From Hymenobacter oligotrophus (GTDB taxonomy: Bacteria; Bacteroidota; Bacteroidia; Cytophagales; Hymenobacteraceae): 64,000 nt of DNA. The position numbers were made by a program, and so were the translations under genes. Below, piece by piece: positions 55,930 to 62,239 of this stretch. Below the pieces are notes generated by a model. That model saw only the letters and a program-made list of their open reading frames with translations. It did not search any database and was not told the DNA's origin. The DNA is taken from contig NZ_CP032317.1 of assembly GCF_003574965.1 (NCBI RefSeq), forward strand, positions 1,612,001-1,676,000, in the 5' to 3' direction. Positions within the stretch are counted from its first letter, which is position 1. Each line of letters begins with the position of its first letter.

Positions 55930-56308
55930 GAAACTTCACCCCCCGGCCCCCTCTCCAAAAGAGAGGGAGTGTACCCTATCCCAGTCAGCACGCGAGATGT
56001 CTCGACGGGGCTCGACATGACGGGCTGCTTTGGGTTATTCTGTATCTGCGCGCAAGATGTCTCGAGGGGCTGGACATGACAGCGCCGTGTGCTGCTGGCT
56101 AGGCAAGGCCTCCGATGAGTTTTGGGCGCTGCTACTACGTTTACGGCTTACGCTTAAATCGTTAGTATGCACGGCTTAGCTGCGTCGCGCGGCTGGTCAA
56201 TAGCTTTTACCTGAAAGCACCTAGGCGCTTAGCTTGAAAGTGCTCTGGCCTGAATAGGCCAGCCGATACAGCAAAACTGCTCTCAAAACCAGCTAGGCGT
56301 GTAACTTG

Positions 56309-56347
56309 CGGCCCGCCGCAGCTCCTTTAGCTGCGGCGGGCCGTTTG
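56309..56347 (+). terminator. GC hairpin 55 bases upstream of bioB
   Basis: A 15-bp perfect stem (56309-56323 with 56329-56343) followed by TTTGG. It could end an upstream transcript or act in the bioB leader. Confidence 0.55.
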
Positions 56348-56401
56348 GTTTGCCGCTTACGGCCCCTCAGATTTGACCACAACCCCTTCCCACCGACTCT
56401 T

Positions 56402-57409
56402 ATGCTCCGTACCGACTGGACGCTCGACGAAGTAAAAGCCATTTATTACCAACCCGTGCTCGAGCTGGTGGCCCAAGCCAGCGAAGTGCACCGCCAGCAC
56501 CAAACCACCGGCGAGGTGCAAGTGTGCACCCTGCTGAGCGTGAAAACCGGCGGCTGCCCCGAAGACTGCGCTTACTGCCCGCAGGCTGCCCGCTACCACA
56601 CCGGCGTGCAAGCCCACAAGCTGCTGCCCGATGCCGAAGTACTAGCCGCTGCCCAGCGGGCCAAGGAGTCGGGTTCGACGCGCTTTTGCATGGGCGCTGC
56701 CTGGCGCGAAGTGCGCGACAACCGCGACTTCGACCGCGTGCTGAACATGGTGTCGCAGGTAAACGACCTAGGCCTGGAGGTATGCGCCACCCTAGGTATG
56801 GTAAACGACTACCAAGCTGAAAAACTCAAGGAAGCCGGCCTGTACGCCTACAACCACAACCTCGATACGAGCGAAGAAAACTACTCCAACATCATCACCA
56901 CCCGCACCTACGACGACCGCCTGAACACGCTCGAAAACGTGCGCAAGGCTGGCCTATCGGTGTGCTCGGGCGGCATCATCGGCCTCGGCGAAACCGACGA
57001 GGACCGCGTGAAGATGCTGCACACGCTGGCCACCCTGCCGGCCCACCCCGAGTCGGTGCCGGTGAATGCACTGGTGCCGGTGCAAGGCACCCCGCTGGCC
57101 GAGCAACCCCGCGTGAGCGTGTGGGAAATGCTGCGCATGATTGGCACGGCCCGCATTCTGATGCCCAACACGATGGTGCGCCTTTCGGCTGGCCGCCAGG
57201 AGATGCCCGTAACCGAGCAGGCTTTGTGCTTCTTGGCCGGTGCCAACTCCATCTTCTCGGGCGAGAAGCTGCTGACTACCCCCAACCCCGATTTCGACGC
57301 CGACAAGGAGATGTTCGCGCTGCTCGGCCTAAAGCCGCGCCAGTCGTTCAAGAACCACGTGCCCGAAGGCGCTACCGTGCTGGCCAAAACTGCCGCTGTA
57401 GAAGCTTAA
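56402..57409 (+). CDS. bioB: Biotin synthase
   Basis: A 335-residue radical SAM enzyme that inserts sulfur into dethiobiotin. The SAM-cluster motif is [10 protein letters not shown] with Cys52, Cys56 and Cys59; the auxiliary cluster cysteines and Arg of the [12 protein letters not shown] region (about 137-148) are conserved. Start at ATG 56402 preceded by an open but unsupported frame. Downstream, a long palindromic element separates it from bioF. Confidence 0.97.
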
Positions 57410-57711: not shown

Positions 57712-58863
57712 ATGGCCTCTCCTCTCCTTTCGCGGCTTGCGCAGCAGCTGCAGCAGCGCGAGGCCGAAGGCACCCGCCGCCAACTAACCTTGCCCGCGCA
57801 AGGCCTAGTCGATTTTGCCTCCAACGACTACCTAGGGCTAGCCCGCTCGCCGCAGCTTACCGCGGCCTTGCAACAAGCTGCGGCCCAGGCTACCAGCATT
57901 GGCAGCACAGGTGCCCGCTTGCTCACGGGCAACTCGGCCGATGCCGAAGCACTGGAAGCAAAAATCGCCGCTTTTCACGGCACCGAGGCGGCCTTGCTGT
58001 TTAACTCGGGGTACACGGCCAACCTAGGCTTTTTCTCGGCCGTGCCGCGGCGCGGCGACGTAATTCTGTACGACGAAGCGTCGCACGCATCGGTTAAAGA
58101 AGGTATCCGCAGCTCCTTTGCTACGGCCTACAGCTTCCGGCACAACAACGTAGCCGGTTTGCGCCGCCGCCTACATCAGCAACCCGGCACGGGCGTGGTA
58201 TTCGTAGCCGTGGAGGCCGTGTACTCGATGGGCGGCGATGCTGCCCCACTGACCGAGTTAGCTGCCGCATGTGCCGAATACGGCGCACAGTTGGTAGTTG
58301 ACGAAGCACACAGCATGGGCGTGCACGGCGCCAACGGCGAAGGCTTGGTTACGGAGTTGGGGTTGGATGATCAAGTGCTGGCGCGGGTAGTTACGTTCGG
58401 CAAGGCCCTTGGTAGCCAAGGCGCTGCCGTAATCGGTTCGGCTGTACTGCGCGACTACCTACTGAACTTCAGCCGGCCTTTTATTTACACTACCTCGCTG
58501 CCTCCGCTTACGCTTGCCGGCCTTGCGGCTGCCTACGAGCAGCTACCGCACCTAGGCGCCGAGCGTCAGCAGTTGTTTGCTCTTTCCGCTTACCTGCGCC
58601 AACGCGTGGCCGCTGTGCCGGGTGTGCAAGTGCCGCCCGAAAGCCAAGTTATTCACCCCATCAGGCTGCCCAATGCCACGCCTGCGCAGGTACGCGCTGT
58701 TGCGCTTGCCGTGCAGCAGGCTGGCTTCGATGTGCGGGCCATTGTACCGCCCACGGTGCCAGCCGGCCAACAATGCCTGCGCGCCATTGTTCATGCCTAC
58801 AATACCACTGCCGAAATAGATGCCTTCGCCGACGCCCTCCGCGCCGCTCTCGCCGCTGCCTAG
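57712..58863 (+). CDS. bioF: 8-amino-7-oxononanoate synthase
   Basis: A 383-residue PLP enzyme that joins pimeloyl-ACP or pimeloyl-CoA with alanine to give 8-amino-7-oxononanoate (KAPA). PLP-binding Lys231 lies in TFGKALG. Conserved stretches SNDYLGLA, VDEAHSMG and GAALL-like cofactor regions are present. The 3' end overlaps bioD by 44 bases in another frame, implying coupled translation. It is preceded by a long palindrome. Confidence 0.96.
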   Translation: MASPLLSRLAQQLQQREAEGTRRQLTLPAQGLVDFASNDYLGLARSPQLTAALQQAAAQATSIGSTGARLLTGNSADAEALEAKIAAFHGTEAALLFNSGYTANLGFFSAVPRRGDVILYDEASHASVKEGIRSSFATAYSFRHNNVAGLRRRLHQQPGTGVVFVAVEAVYSMGGDAAPLTELAAACAEYGAQLVVDEAHSMGVHGANGEGLVTELGLDDQVLARVVTFGKALGSQGAAVIGSAVLRDYLLNFSRPFIYTTSLPPLTLAGLAAAYEQLPHLGAERQQLFALSAYLRQRVAAVPGVQVPPESQVIHPIRLPNATPAQVRAVALAVQQAGFDVRAIVPPTVPAGQQCLRAIVHAYNTTAEIDAFADALRAALAAA

Positions 58864-59488
58864 CTCCATTGCTCCCCAACGCTTGTTTGTTACCGGAATT
58901 GGTACCGATGTAGGCAAAACGGTTGCCGCCGCCGTGCTGGTGCAAGCCCTCGGTGCCGATTACTGGAAGCCCGTACAAGCCGGTGGCCTCGACTTTACCG
59001 ACTCGGATACCGTGCGCAGCCTCGTGAGCAATCCGGTTTCGCACTTCCACCCCGAGCGGCACCGCCTGCAAATGCCTGCCTCGCCGCACCGCGCTGCCGC
59101 CGCCGAAGGCCTTACTATTCGCCTCGAAGAGTTTGCCTTGCCCGCTACCACCAACCACTTGGTAGTTGAGGGTGCTGGCGGCCTGCTGGTGCCTTTGGCA
59201 CCCGGCCTGCTAGTTGCCGATTTGGTGAAGCACCTAGGGCTTGAGGTGGTGGTGGTAAGCCGCCACTACCTAGGCAGCATCAACCACACGCTGCTTACGC
59301 TAGAGGTACTGCGCCAACGGGGCATCCCGCTGCGCGGCCTCGTGTTCAACGGCGACAGTCAGCTCGATGCCCCCTCCGAAGAGGCTATTCTGCACCACAC
59401 GCCCGCGCCGGTACTCTTCCGCTTGCAGCAAGAGGCGCAGCTCGATGCCGCCACTGTGGCGCGCTACGCCGAGCAGGTGCAACTGTAG
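58820..59488 (+). CDS. bioD: Dethiobiotin synthetase
   Basis: A 222-residue ATP-dependent carboxylase that closes the ureido ring of diaminopelargonate. The P-loop is GTDVGKT (28-34); the carbamate and substrate Lys/Ser positions (VQAGGLDFTDSDTVRS) and VEGAGGLLVPLA are conserved. The first 20 residues are Pro/Ser-rich and may be an extension. The start overlaps bioF by 44 bases. The stop codon lies inside the left arm of a 151-bp palindrome. Confidence 0.95.
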   Translation: MPSPTPSAPLSPLPSSIAPQRLFVTGIGTDVGKTVAAAVLVQALGADYWKPVQAGGLDFTDSDTVRSLVSNPVSHFHPERHRLQMPASPHRAAAAEGLTIRLEEFALPATTNHLVVEGAGGLLVPLAPGLLVADLVKHLGLEVVVVSRHYLGSINHTLLTLEVLRQRGIPLRGLVFNGDSQLDAPSEEAILHHTPAPVLFRLQQEAQLDAATVARYAEQVQL

Positions 59489-59635
59489 CGCGGACTTTGG
59501 CTACGCCAACCTTCGGTTACAGTCCGCGTCCACAGATAGTAAACTCAGTCGTTGCGTGTAGCGCCCTAGGTCGGAAGTTACTATCCGGGGACGCGGACTA
59601 CAACCGAAGGTCGGCGTAGCCAAAGTCCGCGCTAC
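59485..59635. repeat. 151-bp palindromic element between bioD and bioA
   Basis: Bases 59485-59531 pair with 59589-59635 (44 of 47 positions), with inner arms 59535-59542 and 59578-59585. The left arm includes the bioD stop codon. Sequence is unrelated to the bioB-bioF element. Confidence 0.85.
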
Positions 59636-59659
59636 ACGCAGTCCCACCGGTTTGTGCGC

Positions 59660-59667
59660 CATCTTTG
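59660..59667 (+). promoter_or_regulatory. CATCTTTG box before bioA
   Basis: One mismatch from TAnnTTTG; 21 bases before the bioA ATG. Suggests bioA can be transcribed separately from bioBFD. Confidence 0.4.
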
Positions 59668-59688
59668 CGGTTCCATTACCTACTTTTC

Positions 59689-61017
59689 ATGTCCCTAGCC
59701 CAACGCGACGCCGCTGTTCTCTGGCATCCGTACACCCAAATGCAAACCGCGCCCCTGCCCATTCCGGTGGTGCGCGGCGAAGGTGCTTGGCTGATTGCCG
59801 AAGACGGCACGCGCTACCTCGATGCCGTGGCCTCGTGGTGGGTAAACCTGCACGGCCACGCCCACCCGCATATTACCCAGCGCGTAAGCGCGCAATTGGC
59901 TACCCTCGAGCACGTCATTTTTGCGGGCTTCACGCACCCCGCTGCCGTGGAGCTGGCCGAAGGCCTGCTGCAGATATTGCCCAGCACGCAGAACCGCATT
60001 TTCTACTCCGACAACGGTGCTACGTCGGTGGAAGTGGCCATCAAAATGGCCTTGCAATACTTCCACAACCACGGCCAACCCCAGCGCCGCACCATCATAG
60101 CGTTCCGCGACTCCTACCACGGCGACACTTTCGGAGCCATGAGCGTGAGTGCGCGTTCGGCCTTTACGGCACCGTTTGCGCCGCTGCTGTTCAATGTGGA
60201 GTTTATCGACGTGCCCGTGCCCGGCCGCGAAGCCGAGGTAATGGCTCAAATGGCTTCCCTAGCTCAGCGCGACGACATAGCTGCGTTCATCTTCGAGCCC
60301 TTGGTGCTCGGCACGGCCGGCATGGTAATGTACGAGCCCGAAAGCCTCGACGCGCTGCTGAGCATTTGCCGCCGCCACGACATTTTCATCATTGCCGATG
60401 AGGTAATGACCGGCTTTGGCCGCACCGGCCGGCTGTTTGCCTCCGACTATTTGCGCGAGCAACCCGACATCATGTGCCTCTCGAAGGGCCTGACGGGCGG
60501 CACCATGGCCTTGGGTGTAACCAGCTGCTCGGCCGCTATTTACGAAGCCTTTCTGAGCAGCGACCGGACGAAAACCTTCTTCCACGGCCACTCCTACACG
60601 GCCAATCCCGTGGCTTGCGCCGCCGGCCTGGCCAGCCTGGATTTATTGCTGGCTCCCGAGTCGTTTGCTGACCGCCAGCGGATTGCTGCCGCCCACGCGC
60701 AATTTGCCCAGGAGCTGCACGGCTTGCCCGGTATTCGGGAAGTGCGGCAGCGCGGCACCATCCTGGCGGTGGAGTTTGCCCCCGACGAAACCACCTCGTA
60801 CTTCAGCCGCCTGCGCGACGAGTTTTACGCCCTAGCCATTGCGCGCGGCGTGTTGCTGCGCCCGCTTGGCAACATCGTGTACGTGCTGCCGCCCTACTGC
60901 ATCAGCAACGCCGAACTGCGCCTTGTGTACGACACCATGCTGGCCATGCGCGAGCTGGTGGTGCGCGCCGCCACCGCAACCGCGCCGGCCTCCCTTCCTG
61001 AGTTTCCGCATGACTGA
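59689..61017 (+). CDS. bioA: Adenosylmethionine-8-amino-7-oxononanoate aminotransferase
   Basis: A 442-residue class III aminotransferase that converts KAPA to 7,8-diaminopelargonate using SAM as amino donor. PLP-binding Lys266 is in LSKGLTGGT. The substrate-specific pattern WHPYTQM (about 12-18) and the SWWVNLHGH motif typical of BioA are present. The ATG at 59689 follows a possible CATCTTTG promoter. The stop overlaps the next gene by 8 bases. Confidence 0.96.
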   Translation: MSLAQRDAAVLWHPYTQMQTAPLPIPVVRGEGAWLIAEDGTRYLDAVASWWVNLHGHAHPHITQRVSAQLATLEHVIFAGFTHPAAVELAEGLLQILPSTQNRIFYSDNGATSVEVAIKMALQYFHNHGQPQRRTIIAFRDSYHGDTFGAMSVSARSAFTAPFAPLLFNVEFIDVPVPGREAEVMAQMASLAQRDDIAAFIFEPLVLGTAGMVMYEPESLDALLSICRRHDIFIIADEVMTGFGRTGRLFASDYLREQPDIMCLSKGLTGGTMALGVTSCSAAIYEAFLSSDRTKTFFHGHSYTANPVACAAGLASLDLLLAPESFADRQRIAAAHAQFAQELHGLPGIREVRQRGTILAVEFAPDETTSYFSRLRDEFYALAIARGVLLRPLGNIVYVLPPYCISNAELRLVYDTMLAMRELVVRAATATAPASLPEFPHD

Positions 61018-62239
61018 TTTCGCCCGGGCTGCCATCGTCATTCGGGGCCGCGGCAGCGTTTCGACCCTAGGTACCGCGGCGGGTGCTCCTCCCCCAGCAG
61101 CTTCGCCGTTTGCCACGCGCGCCCTAGGTGCCCAGCAAGTGCCCGTCGGCGGCCTGCCAGCGGCCGAAGAGCACCAGCTGCAAACCCTCCGCCGCCAGCA
61201 CCCCGCCTACCGCCAACTCGACCGTACCGTGTTGCTTGGGCTACTAGCCGCTCGCGCCGCCCGCGCGCAAGCGGGTTGGCTTTCGGCTGATGAAGCGTCC
61301 GGCGAGGCACCGGCTCCTCAACTCACGGTAAGCATTGGCTCGTCGCGCGGTGCTACGGCGCGGTTCGAGGATTTCCACAGCAGCTACTTAGCCGAAGGCA
61401 ACGTACCCGCAGCTGCTTCGCCTCTTACCACCTTGGGCAACGTAGCCAGCTGGGTAGCTTTTGACGCCGGCAGCCAAGGCGCAACCCTCAGCCACTCCAG
61501 CACTTGCAGCAGCGCGTTTCAGGCTTTGGGCAACGCCGTGGCGTGGTTGCGGGCGGGCATGGCGCAGCGGTTTTTGGCCGGCGGCACCGAGGCCCCGCTT
61601 ACCGACTTCACGCTGGCCCAAATGCAGGCCCTAGGTATCTACTCGCACTTTGCGGCCGAGCAGTGGCCTTGCCGCCCGGGCGCCGGCGGCCCCAACACGT
61701 TTGTGCTGGGCGAAGGCGCCGCCGTGTTCGCGCTCGAACGCCTCACCCCCGAAGCCCTGCAGGCCGAACGCGCCCAGCACCCCACCGCGCCTTTTCTTTT
61801 GCTCGAAGGCGTTGGTTTTGGTTTCGAAGCCATACCCAGCAAAACCGGCCTTTCGCCCGATGGGCAGCACTTCCAGCGCGCCATGCGCGAGGCCCTGCAG
61901 CAAGCCCGCCGTCAACCTTCGGAGGTAGATGCCCTGGTGCTGCACAGCCCCGGCACCGCCGCCGGCGACGCGGCCGAGCGCCGGGCAGTGCAAGCCGTAT
62001 TTGGCCAGCAATTGCCCGCTTGCACCTCCAACAAATGGCTCGTGGGCCATACCCTAGGTGCCTCGGCAGCGCTCAGCCTGAACTATGCCTGCGAGTTGCT
62101 GCTGGGTGCTACTCCGGCGGCGTTGCCCTTTGCATCCTGGCTCAACGAGCACCCCGTACGGCAGCCCTTGCGCCGCATTATGGTAAATGCAGCGGGCTTT
62201 GGCGGCAACGCAGCCAGCGCCATCGTAGCCCTGGCCTGA
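61010..62239 (+). CDS. Beta-ketoacyl synthase-like protein in the biotin operon
   Basis: A 409-residue thiolase-fold condensing enzyme. The catalytic triad is complete: Cys166 in SSTCSSAFQAL, His312 in LHSPGTAAGD and His347 in NKWLVGHTLGAS, spaced as in FabF/FabB (Cys163, His303, His340 in E. coli FabF). The oxyanion and acyl-binding neighbourhoods differ from FabF, so the substrate is uncertain. It overlaps bioA by 8 bases and is surely cotranscribed. A role in making or extending the pimeloyl chain is inferred; bioC, bioH and bioZ are absent from the window. Confidence 0.9.
   Translation: MTDFARAAIVIRGRGSVSTLGTAAGAPPPAASPFATRALGAQQVPVGGLPAAEEHQLQTLRRQHPAYRQLDRTVLLGLLAARAARAQAGWLSADEASGEAPAPQLTVSIGSSRGATARFEDFHSSYLAEGNVPAAASPLTTLGNVASWVAFDAGSQGATLSHSSTCSSAFQALGNAVAWLRAGMAQRFLAGGTEAPLTDFTLAQMQALGIYSHFAAEQWPCRPGAGGPNTFVLGEGAAVFALERLTPEALQAERAQHPTAPFLLLEGVGFGFEAIPSKTGLSPDGQHFQRAMREALQQARRQPSEVDALVLHSPGTAAGDAAERRAVQAVFGQQLPACTSNKWLVGHTLGASAALSLNYACELLLGATPAALPFASWLNEHPVRQPLRRIMVNAAGFGGNAASAIVALA

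Follow-up and report, generated by a model that had tools for sequence, protein, structure and literature searches.

A FabF-Like Ketosynthase Encoded in the Biotin Operon of Hymenobacter oligotrophus and Its Likely Role in Pimeloyl Thioester Supply

Known Routes to the Pimeloyl Moiety

The closest described counterpart of the biotin-operon ketosynthase considered here (KS) is BioZ of Agrobacterium, a KAS III 3-oxopimeloyl-ACP synthase which, like KS, belongs to a biotin operon and is thought to replace BioC-BioH (PMC7645780, PMC8024396). Agrobacterium BioZ uses glutaryl-CoA made via a CaiB-type transferase (PMC7645780), and it has been proposed that the free carboxylate of this substrate is neutralised by Ser84, Arg147, and Ser287 at the tunnel end (PMC8024396). 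The two enzymes are not of the same kind: BioZ is FabH-like with a Cys-His-Asn triad, whereas KS is FabF-like, has Cys-His-His, and comes from a different phylum. The BioC-BioG/BioH systems pass a dicarboxylate through the cycle of fatty acid synthesis, as is proposed for KS; unlike the route proposed for KS, they need methyl capping, and BioC is not found in KS carriers. BioE, a diiron oxygenase of Elizabethkingia and Chryseobacterium (PMC12915131), resembles KS in being a single extra gene of biotin clusters, and it supplies the pimeloyl moiety in those of other Bacteroidota. It is nevertheless unrelated to KS and acts by cleaving long acyl chains.

With FabF and FabB (KAS II and KAS I), KS shares the fold, the catalytic Cys-His-His and Lys, and the GFGG gate. 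It differs from them by an Arg in place of Ile108, by HxPGT in place of HGTxT, by its biotin linkage, and by scores below the cut-offs. In genomes of gut bacteria, a 2019 survey (PMC6593275) listed 74 species with bioF/A/D/B and no known pimeloyl source, for which unknown enzymes were proposed.

The Operon and Its Last Gene

The window, that is, the whole stretch of 64,000 nucleotides that was analysed, derives from the genome of H. oligotrophus, whose near relatives are Solirubrum puertoriconensis and Hymenobacter. The genes bioB-bioF-bioD-bioA-KS follow one another on the plus strand (Table 1). The ATG starts of bioB and bioA were inferred inside open reading frames at 56306-57409 and 59665-61017, respectively. 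For bioF, TIGR00858 is the best family, yet the score lies under its cut-off of 426. The ATG of KS (61010-61012) stands just ahead of the TGA stop of bioA (61015-61017); the same overlap occurs in near relatives, and short gaps are found instead in other relatives. The original prediction, made without database searches, had claimed the reading frame 61010-62239 and its 8-base overlap with bioA, and both are confirmed. It had further claimed a complete Cys166/His312/His347 triad, which is also confirmed, Lys342 and Phe397 completing the site. The protein matches the N (73 bits) and C (62 bits) domains of Pfam ketoacyl-synt. A separate FabF is retained by the genome and is its sole other KAS I/II gene.

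Two observations concern the DNA of the locus itself. An inverted repeat of 59 bases, with arms 92% complementary and 35 bases between them, lies between bioD and bioA (59484-59636); its core has no second copy in the 64-kb window, and it may be terminator-like or a small mobile element. The hexamer CCTAGG is present in 101 copies in the window and accounts for most CTAG sites. In bioB, bioF, bioD, and KS its reading frame is always the same and gives Leu-Gly (CTA GGN).

Table 1. Coordinates of the operon genes, of selected KS codons, and of an additional locus in the relative G035.
Feature	Position	Strand	Remarks
bioB (biotin synthase)	56399..57409	+	TIGR00433 393.6 bits, cut-off 225
bioF (KAPA synthase, pimeloyl thioester consumer)	57712..58863	+	TIGR00858 342.9 bits
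bioD (dethiobiotin synthase)	58820..59488	+	TIGR00347 127 bits, cut-off 83; exact start uncertain
bioA (DAPA aminotransferase)	59689..61017	+	TIGR00508 537.7 bits, cut-off 405
KS ATG / bioA TGA overlap	61010..61017	+	8 bases; suggests translational coupling
KS (biotin-operon ketosynthase, FabF fold)	61010..62239	+	409 aa; last operon gene
Arg113 codon CGC	61346..61348	+	aligns with FabF Ile108, acyl pocket
Cys166 codon TGC	61505..61507	+	nucleophile; motif SHSSTCSS
His312 codon	61943..61945	+	family motif HxPGT (FabF: HGTST)
Lys342 codon	62033..62035	+	equivalent to FabF Lys335
His347 codon	62048..62050	+	equivalent to FabF His340
Extra bioB/BioE locus of G035 (L119)	G035:C1:1592000-1610000; G035:C1:1600012-1600635		

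Active Site, Fold, and Arg113

The residues C166, H312, and H347 of KS align on C163, H303, and H340 of E. coli FabF, and K342 and F397 align on K335 and F400, giving a complete KAS I/II site. All five are invariant in an alignment of 24 relatives, and Cys166, His312, Lys342, and His347 show no variation in any aligned set. Throughout the KS family the usual HGT motif is replaced by HxPGT.

The class test for KAS I/II enzymes (thiolase fold, Cys-His-His, Lys, and GFGG loop) is met by KS. That for the FabF equivalog TIGR03150 is not (129.2 bits versus a cut-off of 493.75), and KS remains below all curated cut-offs. As regards BioZ, KS satisfies the linkage test, being bio-linked and apparently replacing BioC/BioH, but not the test of fold and triad (KAS III, Cys-His-Asn); since these are the defining traits of BioZ, KS is not filed under that name. 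The best structural matches of the AlphaFold model are FabF structures (Z 49, 2.5-2.7 A over about 387 residues), and sequence identity to most solved FabFs is 24-25%. In the tree, the KS family is separated from FabF, FabB, and other ketosynthases as one clade with support 100/99 and a long stem; its two most divergent members have long branches, and their exact position is unsure. In two relatives (L043 7838-9316, L044 7968-9272), KS contains an inserted low-complexity segment, about 30 to 90 residues long, in a variable loop near KS residue 95.

Position 113 is occupied by Arg in 129 of 130 distinct KS family sequences and by Leu in the other one, whereas the equivalent position is Ile, Val, Ala, or Gly in FabF, FabB, and the other ketosynthases compared. 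Two independent alignments, by MAFFT and HMMER, agree in placing Arg113 on FabF Ile108, which belongs to the acyl pocket (PMC7138838, PMC3996569). A basic residue at this place, taken together with the precedent of BioZ, therefore suggests a primer with a free carboxylate, namely, a dicarboxylyl group; Arg113, placed in the pocket only by its alignment with FabF, may have the part of the charged or polar residues at the BioZ tunnel end. This suggestion is an inference from the alignment, without a distance to Cys166, and it concerns a region where the model is less certain, the mean pLDDT being 89 overall and only 69 for residues 111-120. The modest model confidence near Arg113 and the Leu of one family member both count against this part of the reading.

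Distribution in Hymenobacteraceae

A close KS ortholog is present in 31 of the 36 Hymenobacteraceae genomes, the other five having FabF-level matches only. bioB occurs in every carrier (31/31) and in no non-carrier (0/5) of this family, and the order bioB-bioF-bioD-bioA-KS is kept in 30 of the 31 carriers. One genome (G030) retains KS at a distance from its bioBFDA operon, which is complete. The five genomes without KS belong to two genera, one of which also includes carriers, and more than one loss is therefore inferred. The genome G035 has the full bioBFDA-KS operon plus a second bioB adjoining BioE (Table 1), which is possibly a recent gain of the BioE route.

A CaiB-family gene (PF02515) was considered as an obligatory partner of KS. 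It is found in the H. oligotrophus genome, is missing in six of the 31 Hymenobacteraceae carriers, and is present in all five non-carriers; on this pattern CaiB does not look like a fixed partner, and an obligatory role for it is not supported. The pattern leans, if only slightly, to a malonyl route or to another source of glutaryl groups.

Distribution across Bacteroidota and Beyond

When 395 Bacteroidota genomes were searched with a profile, KS was recovered in 31 genomes at 408-608 bits and in two more at 282 and 203 bits, the latter matches being also bio-linked. FabF-like proteins score at most 156 bits, which leaves a clear gap. The matches at or below this value were rejected as KS: they behave as FabF or other ketosynthases, and those inspected do not lie beside bio genes. 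In the same genomes, bioA is present in 33/33 KS carriers versus 147/362 non-carriers (Fisher 9e-13, kinship uncorrected). Fisher values overstate independence here, as the genomes are related, and the exclusivity partly follows family boundaries. In the family f25, which we take to be Flavobacteriaceae, all 26 bioA-positive genomes have KS.

The linkage of KS to bio genes is far beyond chance, because 77 of 80 named loci have bio genes within 7 kb of KS. In relatives from Flavobacterium, Maribacter, Sinomicrobium, and others, KS adjoins bioA and/or bioB. No gene common to the carrier operons was found beyond bioB, F, D, A, and KS; those that interrupt the bio genes of individual genomes (a methyltransferase, a sigma factor, a TraB family member, DUF2007, and a signal peptidase) are not conserved. 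Two metagenome bins, labelled delta proteobacterium and Planctomycetota (L261 and L267), contain the same bioF-D-A-KS cluster, for which gene transfer or mis-binning is possible.

Absence of the Known Pimeloyl Routes Searched

It had been claimed in the original prediction that the window lacks the known pimelate genes, which is weak evidence alone; the search was accordingly widened to the whole genome and the phylum. The genome search for bioC and bioZ that it had proposed gave no BioC-grade gene and no BioZ-like enzyme among two FabH-type KAS III proteins. It had missed Arg113, the phylum-wide distribution, and BioE as a fourth known route.

In the H. oligotrophus genome, no protein exceeds the BioC cut-off of TIGR02072 (185). 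The best, a partial match of 64 bits, was judged a generic methyltransferase by comparison with the full-length BioC of other Bacteroidota, which scores 126-239 bits. No BioE match was obtained in this genome at E 0.01, and no PF03744 match that would indicate BioW. The two FabH-type KAS III proteins were rejected as BioZ, one scoring 289 bits as FabH versus 195-196 as BioZ and the other 271 versus 169-170; this rejection does not extend to a third KAS III match (L302). The absence of known routes in the genome thus covers BioC, BioE, BioW, and BioZ-like enzymes among FabH-type KAS III proteins, BioI being outside the search.

Among the 395 Bacteroidota genomes, full-length BioC occurs in 122 and BioE in 13. 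Neither set overlaps the 33 KS carriers, and KS, BioE, and BioC share no genome; among the close relatives, G035 is the exception, with both KS and BioE. Two features served to recognise BioE: a place beside bioF or bioA, and a match, with a constant offset of two, to the diiron residues that have been reported for EmBioE (PMC12915131). In this phylum set, 27 bioA-positive genomes (e.g., G053, G177, G302, and G443) are without KS, BioC, and BioE. Other pimeloyl routes thus exist, and one of them could be present in H. oligotrophus too.

Proposed Function and Mechanism

Comparison of sequences establishes the intact active site, the operon membership, the co-occurrence with bio genes, the absence of BioC, BioE, and BioW, and the near-invariance of Arg113. 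On this basis, KS is likely to be a dedicated biotin ketosynthase of the KAS I/II (FabF-like) type that supplies a pimeloyl thioester to BioF. Its involvement in the pimeloyl step has strong comparative support, while no experiment has been performed, and the reaction, the primer, the role of Arg113, and the hand-over to BioF are inferred. The original inference that this KS may make or extend a pimeloyl precursor is supported in the same comparative sense only, as the reaction has not been shown.

The proposed sequence would begin with the loading of Cys166 with a dicarboxylyl primer keeping its free omega-carboxylate, which Arg113, in place of FabF Ile108, would neutralise in the acyl pocket. 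His312 and His347, with Lys342, would then drive malonyl-ACP decarboxylation and Claisen condensation. The source of the primer, glutaryl or malonyl, is unproven. A glutaryl primer would give 3-oxopimeloyl-ACP in one round, and a malonyl primer would require two (C3 to C5 to C7). The ordinary FabG, FabZ, and FabI would reduce 3-oxopimeloyl-ACP to pimeloyl-ACP, and BioF, BioA, BioD, and BioB of the same operon would complete biotin. Neither the BioC methyl cap nor the BioH esterase would be required.

A bolder reading, to which we give rather less credence than to its negation, is that pimeloyl-ACP is made from malonyl units alone, Arg113 holding the uncapped malonyl carboxylate. Two normal rounds of the fatty acid cycle would then suffice, without methyl cap, esterase, or lysine-derived glutaryl-CoA. 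If true, this would be the simplest biotin-precursor route known, with one extra gene.

Alternative Explanations

It could be argued that KS is merely the elongase of a BioC pathway in which an unrecognised methyltransferase caps malonyl-ACP and, after two elongations, an unrecognised esterase removes the cap. Generic methyltransferases do occur in the H. oligotrophus genome, the esterases in the BioH role are very diverse (PMC11089781), and in the relative G028 a methyltransferase gene separates bioF from bioD. Against this, the best genome match is partial and well short of true Bacteroidota BioC (64 versus 126-239 bits), neither a methyltransferase nor an esterase is conserved in the KS operon, and a near-invariant pocket Arg would, by inference, be less suited to a neutral methyl ester than to a free carboxylate. 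This explanation is considered unlikely. Even less credible, and indeed very unlikely, is that KS serves general fatty acid synthesis as a spare elongase of the FabF/FabB type and lies in the biotin operon by chance. The FabF fold (Z 49), the intact triad, and the fact that the genome has a single further KAS I/II gene speak for it. However, loss of the biotin genes is always accompanied by loss of KS, which is retained when unlinked from them; its fabF score of 129 bits lies under the cut-off of 494, the family has Arg at pocket position 108 (129/130), and the HGT motif is changed family-wide.

The pimeloyl group might also come from another unknown enzyme or from BioI-like cleavage, KS having only an auxiliary part, such as the elongation or recycling of an intermediate. 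The 27 bioA-positive genomes lacking KS, BioC, and BioE, and the omission of BioI from the search, leave room for such a source; yet the carrier operons have no common gene besides KS and bioB, F, D, and A, and we regard this possibility as improbable. The reading of KS as a dedicated biotin ketosynthase has its own exception in G035, whose KS operon coexists with the second bioB and BioE.

Significance

No description of the KS family was found in the open-licence literature searched, and novelty is thus not proven. Many Bacteroidota, including H. oligotrophus, carry KS where the known precursor genes searched (BioI not among them) are missing, and on these comparative grounds KS probably makes the precursor by an undescribed route. 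The family is a concrete candidate for part of the pimeloyl gap in this phylum. If the proposal is true, biotin synthesis would have recruited a ketosynthase a second time, independently, and a rule suggests itself: with a basic residue in the acyl pocket, the enzymes of fatty acid synthesis can carry a free dicarboxylate. The "FabF-like" annotation used in several bacterial families would also be corrected, and biotin production would gain a new part.
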